Of a stretch of DNA of 28,961 nucleotides, positions 17,895 to 26,124 are shown in pieces (position 1 is the first letter of the stretch; the number at the start of each line of letters is the position of its first letter). The stretch comes from Candidatus Neomarinimicrobiota bacterium (GTDB lineage: Bacteria > Fidelibacterota > UBA2242 > B5-G15): the NCBI GenBank assembly GCA_017656425.1, contig JACDNV010000024.1:1-28961 (forward strand), written 5' to 3'. Position numbers and translations under genes: made by a program. Below the pieces are notes generated by a model. It saw only the letters and a program-made list of their open reading frames with translations. It was not told where the DNA came from and ran no database searches.

Positions 17895-18934
17895 TAGCAC
17901 ATAACAAACCATCATTAGGAAAAGAAGAGGTAAAAGCCCTGGAAAACGTCATAAAATCCGGATATATTGCCCAGGGAGAAAGAGTCAAAAGGCTTGAAAA
18001 AGACTTAACTGAATTTATTGGGAAAAAATATTGTATCTGCACCTCAAGTGGTACAGCCGCTCTAATACTTGCACTAAAAGCAATGGATATTGGTAAAGAT
18101 GATGAAGTAATCATCCCTTCATACACCTGCTCTGCTCTATGGCATGCAGTAAAACTTATGGGAGCAACCCCAATCTTATGCGATATTGAACTCACAACCT
18201 ACAACTTAGCAGTAGTCGATATAAAAAAGAAAATAACAGAAAAAACAAGAGCAATAATATTTCCACATATGTTTGGACAACCAGGATATATAGAGGAAGT
18301 TTTAAAACTTGAAATCCCTGTTATCGAAGACATTGCCCAAAGTATTGGATCAAAAATAAAAGGAAAACAAACAGGAAGTTTTGGCTATATCTCTATTGCT
18401 TCATTCTATGCTACAAAATTTATATGTGGTGGTGAGGGAGGAGCAGTATTAACAGATGATGAATCAATCTATGATAAGGTTATGGATATGCGAGATTACG
18501 ACGAGAAAAATGATCTAAACCTCAGATTTAATTTTAAAATGAATGAACTTGAAGCAGCAGTGACAAATGTTCAACTTTCAAAAATAAAATCATTTATCTC
18601 AATTCGAAAAAAAATATTTGACAATTATTTATCCATACTTGGCGACCATATAGAAATTCCAAATATCAAACTAAACAATTTCGACTACAATTATTTTCGA
18701 GTTATAGCATCACATTCATTCCTCTCACCTGACCAGGTAATTAAAAAGGCTCTGGAATATGGAATTGTCATACGAAAACCCGTATATAAACCACTTCATA
18801 TGTATGCTAACAAAGAAAAACTAATGAATACGGAAATGGCATGGTACAAACAATTTTCGTTACCAATTTATCCAGAATTGGATAAAAAGGATTTTAAAGT
18901 AATTGTTGATTTTCTGAGGACGATATATGATTAG
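17891..18934 (+). CDS. DegT/DnrJ/EryC1-type aminotransferase
   Basis: 347 aa PLP enzyme, more canonical than the one at 12466. It shows SGYIAQG near residue 23, TSSGTAALILAL (51-62), VIIPSYTCSA (73-82), IEDIAQSIGS (145-154) with PLP-contacting Asp147 and Gln150, and SFYATKFICGGEGG (171-184) with the Schiff-base Lys176. It likely makes an amino-sugar nucleotide for the cluster. It overlaps the PIG-L gene by 4 nt and the WecA-like gene by 8 nt, so all three are translationally coupled. The keto-sugar-forming partner enzymes are not in the window. Confidence 0.9.
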   Translation: MIAHNKPSLGKEEVKALENVIKSGYIAQGERVKRLEKDLTEFIGKKYCICTSSGTAALILALKAMDIGKDDEVIIPSYTCSALWHAVKLMGATPILCDIELTTYNLAVVDIKKKITEKTRAIIFPHMFGQPGYIEEVLKLEIPVIEDIAQSIGSKIKGKQTGSFGYISIASFYATKFICGGEGGAVLTDDESIYDKVMDMRDYDEKNDLNLRFNFKMNELEAAVTNVQLSKIKSFISIRKKIFDNYLSILGDHIEIPNIKLNNFDYNYFRVIASHSFLSPDQVIKKALEYGIVIRKPVYKPLHMYANKEKLMNTEMAWYKQFSLPIYPELDKKDFKVIVDFLRTIYD

Positions 18935-20066
18935 GTCAAAATCATTATTGAAATATATACCCACGTTAATTTTTTTCATATTTCTAATCTTTAATAAACA
19001 AATAGCTCATATTTTTAACAATCCTAAAACTATCTACATATATTATTTAATAACTCCGTTTATATTTACTTTTGGGTTAATTCCTGTTTTCAATAAAATT
19101 GCCCTAATATTTAACATTGTGGATAAACCAGGTGGAAGACACATCCATGACCATCCCACTCCAAAAACTGGTGGTATTGTGGTTTTGATAGTCTTTATCG
19201 CAGCAACAAACCTGATAAGAAACCTGCCATATGAATTCAATGGAATATTCTTGGGCACTATGATAATTGGATTCTCTGGAATATTTGATGATGTTAAAGG
19301 TTTACCAGCATGGTTAAAATTGATACTCCAATTGTTAGCCAGCAGTATTGTTATCTATTATGGTGTTTCATTTTCATTTTTGCCTGAGAATATTTTCTTC
19401 AGAATTATTGAAATATTATTAACCATTTTATGGATTGTAGCAATAACAAATGCTATCAATTTCTTAGATGGAATAGATGGTTTAGCTTCTGGAATTGGAA
19501 TAATTACATCGGTATTTTTTGCGATTATTGCATATCTGGGTGGTGATATTTTTATGTATTTACTAAGTTTAATTTTCGCAAGCACTCTATTAGGCTTTTT
19601 TATCTATAATTTTCGTCCAGGCAAAAATGCTCTTACATTCCTTGGTGATACAGGTAGCAATCTTATTGGTTTTTTCTTAGCAATAATTTCAATATACGGA
19701 ACATGGGGAAATGGCAAAATAATCGATATGATCATCCCTCTCCTTATTTTAGCACTACCAATCTCAGATCTGATTATTACCAATTTAGACAGAATTGTTA
19801 AAAAGAAAGTCAACGGTTTTCGTAACATACTCAGCTATACAGGGACAGATCATATTCACCACAGGGTAATGAAAATGGGTTTGAGTAAAACTTCGTCGGT
19901 AATCATTTTGCTAGCACTTAATGCAACTCTGGGGCTTATTACCATACTAATATATCAGGGAAACCTCCTTGAAGGAATAATTGCCATAATAACCTCAATA
20001 AATATAATATTTATTTTTAATTATTTAATATCAATCAGCAATCCAAATAAAAAGGTTTTGCAATAA
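18927..20066 (+). CDS. WecA/TagO-like undecaprenyl-phosphate sugar-1-phosphate transferase
   Basis: 379 aa, about 10-11 membrane helices, polyprenyl-phosphate HexNAc-1-P transferase family. It has DKPGGRHIHDHPTPKTGG (66-83), the Asp pair FDDVKG (120-125), NAINFLDGIDGLA (175-187), FLGDTGSN (238-245) and the cytoplasmic HIHHR motif (309-313). HIHHR places it with the WecA/TagO/WbpL group, which uses UDP-HexNAc, rather than with MraY. It would prime the lipid carrier for the glycosyltransferases upstream, so it is the natural first enzyme of the pathway even though its gene is last in the block. Confidence 0.92.
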   Translation: MIRSKSLLKYIPTLIFFIFLIFNKQIAHIFNNPKTIYIYYLITPFIFTFGLIPVFNKIALIFNIVDKPGGRHIHDHPTPKTGGIVVLIVFIAATNLIRNLPYEFNGIFLGTMIIGFSGIFDDVKGLPAWLKLILQLLASSIVIYYGVSFSFLPENIFFRIIEILLTILWIVAITNAINFLDGIDGLASGIGIITSVFFAIIAYLGGDIFMYLLSLIFASTLLGFFIYNFRPGKNALTFLGDTGSNLIGFFLAIISIYGTWGNGKIIDMIIPLLILALPISDLIITNLDRIVKKKVNGFRNILSYTGTDHIHHRVMKMGLSKTSSVIILLALNATLGLITILIYQGNLLEGIIAIITSINIIFIFNYLISISNPNKKVLQ

Positions 20067-20137: not shown

Positions 20138-20926
20138 ATGTATGAAAGCTACTGGAAGTTAAAAGAGAAACCTTTTGAGAATACGCCGGACCCGAAGTTT
20201 CTATATAGGTCAAGAGAACACGAAGAAGCTATGATTCGCCTTTTGTACGCTATTCACAGCAATAAGGGCTGTGCTTTACTAACTGGAGATTATGGATGTG
20301 GTAAAACACTTTTAATGTATACAATTATCAAAGAACTATCCCAGGGTCCATTTGAAATTGCCTATCTTACCAATCCAAGATGGACACCTATTGAATTAAT
20401 AAAAGAAATCCTATATCAACTAGATATTGAAACAAATTCCGACTCCAAGCTTGATCTGGTACATAAATTAAATGATTTCCTTTACGATACTGCCAGAAAA
20501 CAAAAGCATACTATAGTAATTATTGATGAGGCACAGGAAATCAAAGACCCTGATATCTATGAAGAACTAAGGCTTTTACTCAATTTTCAACTAAATGACA
20601 GATTTTTGCTGACACTATTCCTTGTTGGACAAAACGAACTCAAAGAGTTGATTCAAAAAATCCCACAATTCAACCAGAGAATAGCAATTAAATACCACCT
20701 AAAACCCTTTGACCTGGATGATACTAAATCATATATTGAATATAGAATAAGGGTTGCGGGAAGAGAAGATTCAATGTTTACCCAAGATGCTTATGAAATG
20801 ATTTTTGAAAAATCCGATGGTATTCCCAGACTTATAAATAACATATGTGATCTTTGCCTTGTTATAGGATACGGTAAGAAATTAGAAAAAATTGATAGCT
20901 CTATAGTAAGGGAAGTTAGTCTATGA
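20138..20926 (+). CDS. ExeA/GspA-like AAA ATPase
   Basis: 262 aa. The opening (YWKLKEKPFENTPDPKFLY) is the signature start of ExeA/GspA-type ATPases, which occur with type II secretion, transposition or polysaccharide/exosortase loci. Walker A is GDYGCGKT (50-57) and Walker B is TIVIIDEAQE (125-134, Asp130/Glu131). A sensor-like FLVGQNEL (161-168) and a GIPRLINNICD sensor-2/arginine region (about 228-238) follow. Unlike full-length ExeA it lacks a peptidoglycan-binding C-terminus and has no membrane segment, so it is a cytoplasmic ATPase core. AGGA lies 4-5 nt before the ATG. It overlaps the HD-GYP gene by 4 nt, so the two probably work together. Confidence 0.88.
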   Translation: MYESYWKLKEKPFENTPDPKFLYRSREHEEAMIRLLYAIHSNKGCALLTGDYGCGKTLLMYTIIKELSQGPFEIAYLTNPRWTPIELIKEILYQLDIETNSDSKLDLVHKLNDFLYDTARKQKHTIVIIDEAQEIKDPDIYEELRLLLNFQLNDRFLLTLFLVGQNELKELIQKIPQFNQRIAIKYHLKPFDLDDTKSYIEYRIRVAGREDSMFTQDAYEMIFEKSDGIPRLINNICDLCLVIGYGKKLEKIDSSIVREVSL

Positions 20927-22809
20927 CACCCAGAATGAGAGATATACTCAAATTCTATAATGATGATAGAAAAAGCGACGAGGAGATAAAAAAAGAGAAA
21001 TCCAATAAAGATAAATGCTATGATATAGTTTTTGGAAATCTTGACGAATTAAAAGAAAAACTTTTGAATAAAGAGTCAGAAAATAAGGTTAAAAATGATA
21101 AACCCAAAGAAGAAAAGCTTGATGGGAAAAAAGAGGAAAGGAAAAAAGAAGAAGAAAAAAAAGATGACTATACAGCTGTCTTTGGTAGTTATGAATCCCT
21201 AAAAGAAAAACTATTAGATTCTTGTAAAAAGTCTGAAGAATCAATGAAAGAAAAAAGAAAAGAGAAAGAGGAATTAAAAGCGAAAGAAAAGCCTGATTTC
21301 AAAATTACTGAAGAAATACAAGAGAAAGAGATGCCAGAGGCAGTAAAGGTAGAAAGCATAGGTTTAGAGAAAAATGAACCAGAATTGGAATTAAGCAGTT
21401 TTAACGAAATTAGAGAAGAGCTTTTAAAAAAAACTCCCAAAACAGTCATACACAAACCTACAGAAGAAGTTAAAAAGAAAAAAACTGAAAAAATTGAGGA
21501 AATAAAAGCGACCAATAACGTAGAGGAAGAGACTCGAGAGAAAACTGTACAGGAAAAGGAAGAAACAAAAACAGCGGCTCCTATTGAAGAGCAAATCAGT
21601 AAGACTAAAGAAACAGTCACAGAAAAAGAGGAAAAACAAGAAGAATATGAATTCAGTAGTTTAGAATCGTTAATGGAAGACCTAAAAAAACCGCATATCC
21701 CCCCACCTATTTCTGAAGAAGAACCAACTATTACCGAACAGCTCATTCAAGAAGAAGAAGGAGAAACTACAGAAGAATCAATAAAAGAGCCTGAAATAGA
21801 GAAATCTGAAGAAAAAGAAGAGCAACCCTTTTCACCATTTAAAGAACTGGAAAAAGAAATAGAAAGGACCTCCTCTAAGGAGGACCACATAAAGAGAGTG
21901 CCTGAAAGGGAATCACAAATAACAGCAGGAACCCTGGAATATTCGGGCATTGATTTTTATCTCGAAGCAAATAAAGTAGTGGAACAGGCGATTAACCAGA
22001 TAAATACTAAATCGCATGATTTTATTATTCCAGTACTGAAGTTGGCTCCCACTTTTGTTAATAACGTATTGAATCACGAAGAACTCCTTGCTTTAGCAAT
22101 CCAAAAGAAAAGATACAGTAAATGGCTTGTATCACATCAGGTAAATGTAGCAATAATAAGTCTAAAAATAGGCATGGGGCTAAATCTACCCGAGATAAAA
22201 CTAAATGAACTTACAGTTTCAGCTTTGTTTCATGATATCGGAATGTTAAAAATACCAAACTCTATTATATTTAAACACGGTAGATTAGCTAATGAAGAAT
22301 TCGACCTAATCAAGAAACACCCAGAATTTGGTGTGGAATTAATATCTCAACTAAGAACAGATTATCCTTATTTGCTCGAAGCAATATACCAGGAGCATGA
22401 AAGATATGACGGCTCAGGCTATCCAAGAGGATTGCGTGGAAATGAAATTTCTATGTATGCGAGGATAATTGGACTTGCCGATACTCTTGAGGCTCTACTT
22501 CATGGAAGAGCATATAGAGATGGATTTATAACACAGAAAGCCATTCAGACTATCATACAGCAAAGGGCAAAATTATTTGATCCAAAAGTACTTAGAGCAA
22601 TGATAGATACAATTTCAATATTTCCTGTTGGTAGTTATGTAAAGTTAAATACAGGTGAGCTTGCACGGGTTATATCAATCAATAAACAGAGACCGGTTCG
22701 ACCAACAGTCGAGGTAATAAGAGACAAGAATGGAGAAGCACTAGCCGAGCCATATCAAATCAACCTTGAAAAAGAGCCCCTTATATACATAACAAAGCAA
22801 ATCTCTTAA
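20923..22809 (+). CDS. HD-GYP domain protein with long Glu/Lys-rich motif-repeat tail
   Basis: 628 aa. Residues 1-335 are extremely rich in Glu and Lys, probably disordered or helical. They contain five copies of a short motif ending in an amphipathic xxLxExLL: 33-48 (YDIVFGNLDELKEKLL), 83-98, 155-168, 241-255 and 303-314. Residues 340-400 form the helical lead-in and 400-560 the HD-GYP domain: HQVNV (His405), FHDIGMLKIP (His437-Asp438), KHPEFG (His466), HERYDGSGYP (492-501) and LADTLEAL (Asp520). A small beta domain closes the protein. HD-GYP domains hydrolyse or bind c-di-GMP or related cyclic dinucleotides. The usual His-His pair before ERxDG is Glu491-His492, and HDIGK reads HDIGM, so activity may be altered. 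The start overlaps the ATPase gene. Its stop overlaps the convergent sensor gene by 4 nt. Confidence 0.88.
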   Translation: MTPRMRDILKFYNDDRKSDEEIKKEKSNKDKCYDIVFGNLDELKEKLLNKESENKVKNDKPKEEKLDGKKEERKKEEEKKDDYTAVFGSYESLKEKLLDSCKKSEESMKEKRKEKEELKAKEKPDFKITEEIQEKEMPEAVKVESIGLEKNEPELELSSFNEIREELLKKTPKTVIHKPTEEVKKKKTEKIEEIKATNNVEEETREKTVQEKEETKTAAPIEEQISKTKETVTEKEEKQEEYEFSSLESLMEDLKKPHIPPPISEEEPTITEQLIQEEEGETTEESIKEPEIEKSEEKEEQPFSPFKELEKEIERTSSKEDHIKRVPERESQITAGTLEYSGIDFYLEANKVVEQAINQINTKSHDFIIPVLKLAPTFVNNVLNHEELLALAIQKKRYSKWLVSHQVNVAIISLKIGMGLNLPEIKLNELTVSALFHDIGMLKIPNSIIFKHGRLANEEFDLIKKHPEFGVELISQLRTDYPYLLEAIYQEHERYDGSGYPRGLRGNEISMYARIIGLADTLEALLHGRAYRDGFITQKAIQTIIQQRAKLFDPKVLRAMIDTISIFPVGSYVKLNTGELARVISINKQRPVRPTVEVIRDKNGEALAEPYQINLEKEPLIYITKQIS

Positions 22810-24134
22810 GTTTCTCCACGTTCCTTTAACCTCAACAACAAAAAATAAAGAGCTTTTACCTGATTATACATATTCCTCAAAACTTCAAAGTTAATAAATC
22901 TAAAATAGCAATCTCTCCTATCGCCAAAAATAGCGTACAATTTTTCGCTTCTGGAAAAAACAAAAGGTATAAATAAAAGGGAATTTGCCATTTTACCACA
23001 GATATCTAATATCTTCTTATCATCAATAATGTAGAATTCCTGTTCACCACATCTTATGTGATCATTAATATTCTCCATAACCTTAGGAAATAGCTCTTTA
23101 CATTCTATCGATTCCTCGCTTCTAAAAGCATCTACTTTACCAGCTTGTTCCCTCGCAAAGCAATATAAATCCACAGAGTATATCTTCTTCACCTCCTCAC
23201 AAAAAATCCTTAACAAAGAAGTAACATAATCCTCATACTTACTCTGATTCAATAATTGTGAAAGATTATATACTAATCTGTAACTTTCATTTACATCTTC
23301 TCTCTTTCTTAATAAATCCCTTAAGTAGTTCATTAACTGTCCTAATATAAATCCATTCAAAACAAGGATAGATGATAAGAATGCTCCATGGGTAAACCCA
23401 CCCATTAATATCACAGGATATACTAATTTAGAAACTGGTAATACTAAACTGATACCAAGTGTTATTACTAAAGTAAATACATAAATGATTCTTTTAAATC
23501 CCTGATAACAGTTAAATAGTCCAATGTGAAAACTGGCAGATAATGATAACATTATTATTATAGATGGCAATAAAATAGAAATAAAGTTAAAGTTTACCAC
23601 ATTTATTGGTTCATAGGTATATCTGTTCTCAGATATCATAAGATAAACTGATAGAATCAAGCAGAAAAATAAGCAACCATACCACATAATATATACAGTA
23701 ATGCTTTTTTTAATTCTAACTAATTCATCTGCAATCAATATTGTAAATGAAATTCCTATAAAGGCTAAAAAAGTTATAAAAGCAGAATAAATATTCCAGT
23801 AAACAGGGAACTCTGCAAGAAGGGGACTCTTCCCCCACAATTCAAGATAGTCTCTTAATAAATATGCCAGGATTCCATTTACTCCCCAGAACAGAGACAT
23901 CGAAAGTAATAAACCAATACTCAAAAAATAGTAGCTCCTTCTATTTAGTTTTATTATGCTATGGGCAAAAATTCCTGCCAGAAATATGCCAGCAATTAAT
24001 CCTATCTCTCTTTCAATTCGGAAACTCTTTATAAAATTTGGTACATTATAAAAAGTTGTGTCAACCACATAAACAATTATAAATATTAATACACTTAAAA
24101 AAAGAGGGATAAATATTTTAAAAAAATTTTTCAT
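22806..24134 (-). CDS. Multi-pass membrane sensor-like protein with GAF-like C-terminus
   Basis: 442 aa. About eight hydrophobic helices fill residues 7-265 (roughly 7-26, 43-60, 67-92, 113-135, 145-167, 183-205, 215-235 and 238-262). A charged helix (LRKREDVNESYRLVYNL, 275-291) then leads to a soluble domain to residue 442 with the helix-strand pattern of a GAF domain. No histidine kinase, GGDEF or other output domain follows, so it is either a stand-alone receptor or a sensor that signals to another protein. It lies 9 bp after panD, without its own ribosome binding site, so it is probably coupled to it. The GAF assignment is by pattern only. Confidence 0.6.
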   Translation of the reverse strand: MKNFFKIFIPLFLSVLIFIIVYVVDTTFYNVPNFIKSFRIEREIGLIAGIFLAGIFAHSIIKLNRRSYYFLSIGLLLSMSLFWGVNGILAYLLRDYLELWGKSPLLAEFPVYWNIYSAFITFLAFIGISFTILIADELVRIKKSITVYIMWYGCLFFCLILSVYLMISENRYTYEPINVVNFNFISILLPSIIIMLSLSASFHIGLFNCYQGFKRIIYVFTLVITLGISLVLPVSKLVYPVILMGGFTHGAFLSSILVLNGFILGQLMNYLRDLLRKREDVNESYRLVYNLSQLLNQSKYEDYVTSLLRIFCEEVKKIYSVDLYCFAREQAGKVDAFRSEESIECKELFPKVMENINDHIRCGEQEFYIIDDKKILDICGKMANSLLFIPFVFSRSEKLYAIFGDRRDCYFRFINFEVLRNMYNQVKALYFLLLRLKERGET

Positions 24135-24636: not shown

Positions 24637-26124
24637 ATGAAGAACATTTTTGAGTACTTAGACTTTTATTCAAAATACAATCCTAATAAGACTTTTATTT
24701 CATATCATGAGAATAATTATTCATACAAACAAATAAACAACGCAGTAAATAATCTTTGTAACATAATAAACAGGTCGTTTGCTAACTATCCCAAGCGTAT
24801 TGCACTTTTTTTACCTGGTTCCCCAGAATTTATAACTTCTTATTTTGCTTCTATCAAATTGGGAGCTGATGTAGTAATAATACCACCAAATATCACTTAT
24901 CAGGAACTATCAAATCTTTTAAAGCAGACAAAACCAGATATTCTCATATTGAATAATAATTCAAATGACAAAGTTGATAAGGCTAAATTTCTCTCAAAAT
25001 GCGAATTTATAAAAATAATATTCAGTTCGAATAAAGACAACTCATTAAATATCAATGAATTAATAAATTATGAATCAGAATTTAAACAAACTACTTACCC
25101 AAATTTTGAAGAAAGACAAATACTTTTTTTCTTAAAAAAATTTCGGCAGAAAAGATCTAGAATAGGCTACTCTTATAAAAACATAACCTCTGCAGCTCGG
25201 TCACTTGCAGGAATTGTAAAATTCCTTCCAAAGAAAGTTTTTATCAATTCCTATCCTTTACATACAACAAAAGGGAATATACAGATTCTAAACACTTGTC
25301 TTGCTTCTGGCGGTAGACTGGTCATTTCAAATAATAATATTCCCAACCAAATTGCAAAACAGATTCAAAAACAGAAAGTTACTATATTTGTTACAGACAC
25401 AAATTATTTAATAGAAACTGTTGAAAATTTTGAAAATATTGAAAGAAAAAGTAAACAAAAAGTTATACTACTAAACGGTATTTTGTATGATCGTAAAATA
25501 TTTAAGGAAATTGAAGAAAAATTCAATTTTACAATCCTCGAAGGCTTTGGACTTCCTGAAACTTCCGAAGTCTGTTGCTGGAATCTAAACAAACTTGAGC
25601 GAGTAGAATTATCAATTGGCAAACCACTACCTTGTAACCAGGTTTTAATTGTTAATGAAGATGGAAAAGAAATGCCCCCCTACAAACCAGGGTACCTGGC
25701 AATAAAAGGGGAAAATATTTGTAATCAAATAATAGACGATCAAACTAAAATTTATAAGGATTGGATAAAGACAGAATTGATTGGATATAAAGATCACGAC
25801 GATTTTATTTATTTAAAATCTAAGAAGAAAAATATACTTCATAGACATGGATACGAAGTATATATCGAAGATATTGAAGATTTTATAAGACAACTGGAAG
25901 AGGTAAATGATGTTGCAATTTCTGTAACAGAATCCGGTGGTGGACATGATAAATACAAAGCATGTATCAAATTAAAAAACGGAATAAAGAGTGATACAGA
26001 AACTTTGAAAAAAGTTATAATAGACCATCTACCAAAATACCTCATCCCTGATGAATTAGAAGTAGTGAAAAGTATTCCAAAAGATGAATATGGTAATATT
26101 TTAAGACATAAACTAAACAAATAA
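24637..26124 (+). CDS. Degenerate ANL-superfamily (AMP-binding-like) protein
   Basis: 495 aa with the overall length and order of acyl/aryl-CoA ligases or NRPS adenylation domains: an N-terminal lead (EYLDFYSKYNPNKTFISY), LFLPGSPEFITSYFASIKLGA near 57-77, EGFGLPETSE (302-311) and a C-terminal lid. The catalytic motifs are lost. The P-loop normally reading TSGTTGKPKG is FLKKFRQKRSRIG (165-177). The A7 TGD is TEL (379-381), the A8 GRxKD is SKKKN (395-399), and the A10 catalytic Lys after Gly486 is Asn487. Loop length is kept, so this is substitution rather than a frameshift. It is probably not an active ligase and may be a binding or regulatory protein. It heads the operon with the EF-G-like and HIT genes. 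Confidence 0.75.
   Translation: MKNIFEYLDFYSKYNPNKTFISYHENNYSYKQINNAVNNLCNIINRSFANYPKRIALFLPGSPEFITSYFASIKLGADVVIIPPNITYQELSNLLKQTKPDILILNNNSNDKVDKAKFLSKCEFIKIIFSSNKDNSLNINELINYESEFKQTTYPNFEERQILFFLKKFRQKRSRIGYSYKNITSAARSLAGIVKFLPKKVFINSYPLHTTKGNIQILNTCLASGGRLVISNNNIPNQIAKQIQKQKVTIFVTDTNYLIETVENFENIERKSKQKVILLNGILYDRKIFKEIEEKFNFTILEGFGLPETSEVCCWNLNKLERVELSIGKPLPCNQVLIVNEDGKEMPPYKPGYLAIKGENICNQIIDDQTKIYKDWIKTELIGYKDHDDFIYLKSKKKNILHRHGYEVYIEDIEDFIRQLEEVNDVAISVTESGGGHDKYKACIKLKNGIKSDTETLKKVIIDHLPKYLIPDELEVVKSIPKDEYGNILRHKLNK

Follow-up and report, generated by a model that had tools for sequence, protein, structure and literature searches.

Five copies of a conserved short motif in the tail of an HD-GYP-family protein encoded next to an ExeA-like ATPase

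To our knowledge, there is no sequence-level explanation of how ATPases of the ExeA/GspA, MshM and XrtA types find their partners. This question is raised by a 28,961 nucleotide stretch of DNA (contig JACDNV010000024.1, hereafter the window) from a Candidatus Neomarinimicrobiota bacterium, in which the gene for an ATPase of this kind is followed by a gene for an HD-GYP-family protein of 628 aa with a long predicted-disordered tail (20923-22809, +). An earlier note on this DNA had pointed out five copies of a short motif in the tail and proposed that they dock the protein onto the ATPase. If a short motif were the common key, the partners of such ATPases would be predictable from sequence across bacteria.

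The ATPase and the gene that follows it

The first gene of the pair (20138-20926, +) encodes an AAA+ ATPase of 262 aa that resembles ExeA, MshM and the XrtA-associated ATPase. It contains a Walker A motif (GDYGCGKT, 20285-20308, +), a Walker B motif (IIDEAQ, within 20510-20536, +) and the sequence GIPRLINN (20819-20851, +). An ExeA-type AAA+ domain was present (AAA_22, 80 bits), and the same family model detected both this protein and a GspA-type protein of 650 aa. No peptidoglycan-binding domain was detected by Pfam in the 262 aa, the C-terminal extension of ExeA/GspA being absent, whereas the corresponding domain (PF01471) was present in an Auribacterota GspA (locus L154) examined for comparison. 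The best family model was TIGR03015, the XrtA/PEP-CTERM-associated ATPase, against which the window protein scored 243.3 bits, below the curated cut-off of 324.5 bits.

A search of PDB sequences with the ATPase gave no match. An AlphaFold2 model, computed from eight input sequences, had a pLDDT of 90, and its nearest folds were Cdc6/ORC, TnsC and MuB (Z about 20). As these AAA+ proteins form rings or filaments, the predicted fold agrees with the earlier statement that the family of this ATPase forms rings. The structure matches included 9gmz, in which TnsC was solved with the TnsAB 'hook' and a short peptide of the partner binds the ATPase assembly; by analogy, this may be taken as a precedent for a partner peptide docking onto the fold of the window ATPase. 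TnsC, with its TnsA/TnsB hook, and MuB belong to the same AAA+ fold group as the window ATPase but act on DNA and share about 16-19% identity with it, and there is no transposase here.

The ATPase and HD-GYP genes overlap by four nucleotides (ATGA), as had been noted earlier. They are preceded by a gene for a WecA/MraY-like glycosylphosphotransferase (18927-20066, +; PF00953), the last gene of a conserved polysaccharide-type operon before the pair. A search of 61 relatives found the ATPase in 40; within the window's order, an order of uncultured bacteria, 18 of 23 genomes have it. The earlier note had suggested looking for the same adjacency in other genomes, and it proved to be conserved: the HD-GYP gene came next after the ATPase in 17 of these 18 genomes, and in the 18th the contig ends. 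The ATPase and a close HD-GYP orthologue were both missing from the remaining five (G003, G007, G009, G010 and G018). The operon around the pair was constant in the order and consisted of genes for a PHP-type protein (a label given by reading), WbqC, a PIG-L deacetylase, a DegT-type aminotransferase and the WecA-like transferase, followed by the pair and, downstream, a convergent membrane protein gene and then panD.

In the window, the convergent gene (22806-24134, -) encodes a membrane protein of 442 aa with no Pfam match. This is about 200 aa less than its longer relatives (630-690 aa, with a GAF domain at loci L050 and L052), and the protein may be shortened or diverged. Further downstream (24637-26124, +), an AMP-forming acyl-CoA ligase-like protein is encoded, which showed a weak match (105.8 bits against a cut-off of 592) to TIGR03098, an exosortase-associated ligase family.

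Outside the order, family f5 of the same phylum has a related ATPase followed by a REC-HD-GYP protein, in another genomic setting. The ATPases at Auribacterota and Planctomycetes loci L039-L046 had no HD-GYP neighbour. At Auribacterota loci L039, L040 and L041, which hold the closest named ATPases, the ATPase gene follows a PilB/GspE-like gene and is itself followed by an NtrC-type regulator and then a PilC/GspF-like gene instead of HD-GYP. A tree of 78 ATPases split by partner class, the HD-GYP clade having a support of 100/98.

GspA-GspB and ExeA-ExeB of type II secretion, like the window pair, combine an ExeA-family AAA+ domain with a partner gene that is adjacent and co-inherited. Fusions of GspA and GspB exist (PMC9239104) and formation of the complex requires the ATPase domain (PMC9239104, PMC4098917). 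The window ATPase differs from GspA/ExeA in having no peptidoglycan-binding part, and its partner is an HD-GYP protein whereas GspB/ExeB is a periplasmic scaffold. The MshM-MshN pair of the MSHA pilus likewise has an ExeA-like ATPase followed by a product with a short starting motif (MSVINQMLKDL), but the window has no pilus genes and the partner domain is a different one. The XrtA-associated ATPase also adjoins exopolysaccharide genes, and the tyrosine autokinase of that system starts with MSRIEEALARA; in contrast, no XrtA-type tyrosine kinase or chain-length protein was found among the genes flanking the window pair. Judged from sequence and gene order, the pair is probably an HD-GYP variant of the GspAB/MshMN-like ATPase-partner pairs.

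DUF3391 is a domain that occurs in HD-GYP proteins. Vibrio cholerae has an HD-GYP protein that contains it (PMC4212101), and in Alteromonas a DUF3391 gene adjoins gspB and GspB itself carries the domain (PMC9239104). There is therefore a precedent for linking GspA/B to proteins of the HD-GYP type. The earlier note had not recognised the architecture, and in the literature searched, which included few subscription papers, we likewise found neither the pair nor the tail repeat described, and nothing direct on an HD-GYP protein with an ExeA-like ATPase or on a shared N-terminal docking motif; the Alteromonas arrangement (PMC9239104) nevertheless means that the architecture is not wholly without precedent.

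The five-copy tail motif

The five segments of the tail were located at the residues given in the earlier note. Copy 1 (YDIVFGNLDELKEKLLNK, 21019-21072, +) covers residues 33-48 (YDIVFGNLDELKEKLL) and copy 2 (YTAVFGSYESLKEKLLDS, 21169-21222, +) residues 83-98 (YTAVFGSYESLKEKLL). Copy 3 (LELSSFNEIREELLKK, 21385-21432, +) covers residues 155-168 (LELSSFNEIREELL), copy 4 (YEFSSLESLMEDLKK, 21646-21690, +) residues 241-255 (EYEFSSLESLMEDLK) and copy 5 (FSPFKELEKEIERT, 21829-21870, +) residues 303-314 (FSPFKELEKEIE). A profile was built from 16 relatives, each contributing its one conserved tail motif, with the window excluded. Its five best sites on the window tail were at 37, 87, 157, 244 and 303, which are the same five segments, and copies 1 to 5 scored 10.9, 5.3, 11.4, 8.7 and 4.5 bits respectively. 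Compared rank by rank with 2000 shuffles of the tail, the best site had P = 0.002 and ranks 2-5 had P = 0.0005, the floor of the test; the sixth site (-0.15 bits) was not significant against these shuffles. Copies 1, 2 and 3 could also be aligned as DNA (66-71% identity over 38 nt, with 71% between copies 1 and 2), which fits an origin by duplication.

The motif has the form F/L-S-x-L-D/E-x-I/L-R/K. An alignment of 14 orthologues showed a mean column entropy of 1.11 for the repeat, compared with 0.86-1.27 for the folded parts of the protein and 2.2-2.6 for the linkers, and the polar positions were conserved as well as the hydrophobic ones. Most relatives have one copy, several f4 members have a weaker second one of the type STLDRLKTALE and the window has five, such that the motif varies in number while it is itself conserved, a pattern that the earlier note had proposed to look for. 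In the most divergent members (L060 and L061), the repeat copies were weak and barely or not above shuffles. By its conservation, the tail motif is a short linear motif of the kind expected of a partner-binding site. Single-sequence AlphaFold2 prediction of the tail gave low-confidence helices (pTM 0.19), among them isolated ones at residues 158-170 (copy 3), 305-322 (copy 5) and the N-terminus; it decides little, as Glu/Lys runs were turned helical too.

The N-terminal element and the binding partners of the tail

Apart from the repeat, the earlier note had called the tail featureless, which did not hold. Residues 1-13 contain a second element that is conserved as much as the repeat (mean entropy 1.02 across the order, 14 orthologues, against the 2.2-2.6 of the linkers). 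In the window it reads RMRDILKFYN (residues 4-13; 20932-20961, +), and we propose it as an ATPase-docking motif. Of the 13 aromatic residues of the tail, 12 lie in this element and the five segments, as do 16 of the 20 leucines; together these stretches make up 26% of the tail length.

ATPases of this family were found in 85 of 245 genomes of the phylum, none scoring above the TIGR03015 cut-off. Their neighbours were of unrelated kinds, namely PilM-like (PF11104), CheW-domain (PF01584), HD-GYP, REC-HD-GYP and HDOD proteins. A short starting motif followed by a linker, as in the HD-GYP proteins (MVRMKDVLKS), was also present in PilM-like (ATNRLLDLLR), CheW-like (MVDILKLRK), GspB-like, MshN and tyrosine kinase partners. 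Outside the phylum, similar N-termini were found in MshN of Aeromonas and Legionella and in tyrosine kinases of Nitratidesulfovibrio, Rhodobacterales and a planctomycete. An Auribacterota GspB-like protein, encoded beside the 650-aa GspA, has a similar start (MSIIMDALEKAQ), and both this start and that of a T2SSC-like partner (EEKLLNIIRKK), at new loci, fit the pattern described below.

In family f26 of the same phylum (loci L079-L086), a single protein of 915-1034 aa combines the ATPase with a long partner that resembles the PilM type. The fusion keeps the motif (SSNKLLNVLRKN, AVNKLLDVLRQD) directly behind the AAA domain, and in the ATPase tree the fused ATPases sit beside the PilM-paired ones. 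Pfam scored no PilM domain in the one fusion protein scanned, so the PilM nature of this partner rests on reading and on the tree. The partners starting with MVDILKLRK were encoded at loci L087, L088, L089 and L094; the one scanned (L087) has a C-terminal CheW domain, and the tails of L087 and L094 have a common second motif, SIKELLA[KE]KK. In each of two phyla, an HDOD gene lies downstream of an ExeA-like ATPase (L108, 2319-3248, -; L156, 5673-6542, +); one was identified by Pfam and the other by reading.

A simple N-terminal pattern, written after the data had been seen, was matched by 16 of 17 HD-GYP, all four CheW-type and 25 of 28 PilM-type partners, compared with 3.3% of 459 other ORFs. 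It was matched neither by the REC-HD-GYP partners (0/5), which have a conserved N-terminal element RSIDLFR and in which a regex search found no tail repeat, nor by an HDOD partner. A strict PilM-type profile applied to the HD-GYP N-termini gave nothing significant save a marginal hit in the window. With a profile of MshN and tyrosine kinase starts, most HD-GYP N-termini, which are related sequences, fell in about the top 2-6%, and the tail repeats did not match it beyond shuffles. In Rhodobacterales the Wzz-like gene directly after the ATPase lacks the motif, which is present instead in the kinase encoded next (2 of 4 in the strict form), and the start of GspB of E. coli K-12 lacks it. As the N-terminal motif is present in most partner classes while the REC-HD-GYP partners lack the repeat by regex, the N-terminal element is likelier to be the ATPase-docking site, and a better candidate for it, than the tail repeat. 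That one such docking motif is shared among the partner classes is no more than plausible, since the pattern was post hoc and strict profiles fail from class to class.

We have moderate confidence that the pair is a two-part machine of the GspA-GspB/MshM-MshN kind, with an HD-GYP partner tethered by the motifs of its tail. The AAA+ ATPase would assemble into a ring or filament, and short helical motifs in the disordered N-terminal tail of the partner would tether the partner to it. Most likely, the N-terminal element (of the RxMKDVLKS type) would dock on the ATPase and the internal motif, usually in one or two copies and here in five, would add docking sites, such that one HD-GYP protein could span several ring protomers or several could gather around the ring. 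On this reading, the ATPase is probably the partner of the tail motif as well. The function of the pair is probably to control or build something at the envelope, close to the co-inherited polysaccharide pathway. Motif numbers range from one to five in the order, which would provide a natural series for avidity.

A possible but less probable alternative is that docking on the ATPase is left to the N-terminal element and that the repeat binds another protein, such as one from the polysaccharide or envelope machinery; the HD-GYP protein would then be an adaptor between ATPase and client, with five-fold avidity here. This would fit the REC-HD-GYP partners, which keep the RSIDLFR element and have no repeat by regex, the dissimilarity in profile between the repeat and the N-terminal motifs, and the occurrence of the repeat only where the polysaccharide-type operon is conserved too, but no protein is known to carry a matching receptor. 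We consider it unlikely that the HD-GYP protein self-associates through the motifs, as a helical bundle or coiled coil, with the ATPase merely co-transcribed: several copies are predicted to form helices that contain leucine, but the copies lie far apart on a charged linker and most relatives have just one or two, and the two genes are inherited together, with an ATPase tree that follows partner class.

Still less can be said for amphipathic helices that would bring the protein to the membrane with no protein partner, even though the motifs are amphipathic and membrane enzymes are encoded nearby. Their net charge was -1 to +1 in all copies and relatives tested, a HeliQuest-type discriminant gave 0.06 to 0.66 against the usual threshold of 0.68, and the conservation of the polar positions alongside the hydrophobic ones also argues against it. 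It is most improbable that the repeat simply reflects the low complexity of the tail. The window tail is indeed rich in Glu (25%) and Lys (18.5%), but the profile exceeds shuffles of identical composition and the motif is conserved in relatives whose tails are rich in Pro, Ser and Gln.

Extending the preferred reading, in which the tail motifs tether the HD-GYP protein to the ATPase, we tentatively suggest that ExeA/MshM-like ATPases may be general platforms whose interchangeable effectors (secretion scaffolds, PilM, CheW, tyrosine kinases, HD-GYP) attach through one N-terminal helix, and that the window's lineage multiplied a second motif to five. This wider proposal is doubtful; if it were true, a one-to-one tether would have become multivalent in this lineage, with a pseudo-enzyme HD-GYP protein as its effector.

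The HD-GYP domain and its c-di-GMP context

The HD-GYP domain occupies residues 400-556 (22120-22590, +; PF13487, HD_5, 118.6 bits). Its catalytic residues were compared by alignment with those of PmGH (4mcw) and V-cGAP3 (5z7c), with which it has the domain and most metal ligands in common; the first His, the HD pair, the next His and the last Asp are retained. In HDIGM (22231-22245, +), the metal-binding HD is kept and Met replaces the Lys of the canonical HDIGK. At the second site (QEHERYDGSGYP, 22390-22425, +), aligned to 4mcw, Glu replaces the first His of the canonical HHExxDGxGYP. The window protein thus has HDIGM and EHE where an active HD-GYP phosphodiesterase has HDIGK and HHExxDGxGYP. 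Unlike PmGH and V-cGAP3, members of the order have HD[IV]GM and, where the second site was readable, E[HQ]E; in many orthologues this is EQE, with both His gone. The one f5 REC-HD-GYP protein read there has HDVGM and EHE.

Phosphodiesterase activity of the window protein is doubtful because its active site is degenerate, and the protein is probably catalytically impaired. VC2497 of V. cholerae, an HD-GYP protein with DUF3391, was inactive in all assays used (PMC4212101). The link to cyclic-dinucleotide signalling proposed earlier is weakened by these substitutions, which extend to all readable members of the order. With its degenerate metal site, the domain may serve as a sensor or structural head, not a strong phosphodiesterase, and perhaps binds a nucleotide, whether a cyclic dinucleotide or not. 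Should one short motif prove to be what these ATPases recognise in their partners, the pair would be an example of a signalling domain, probably a non-enzyme, wired into such a machine.

The window's genome encodes two GGDEF proteins and a second, canonical GAF-HD-GYP protein (L125, 957-2546, -) with HDIGK and HHEKLDGSGYP; no match to EAL or PilZ was found in this genome, making a very small c-di-GMP set. From this set, the organism can probably make c-di-GMP, but the HD-GYP protein of the window is not the enzyme that one would expect to degrade it.
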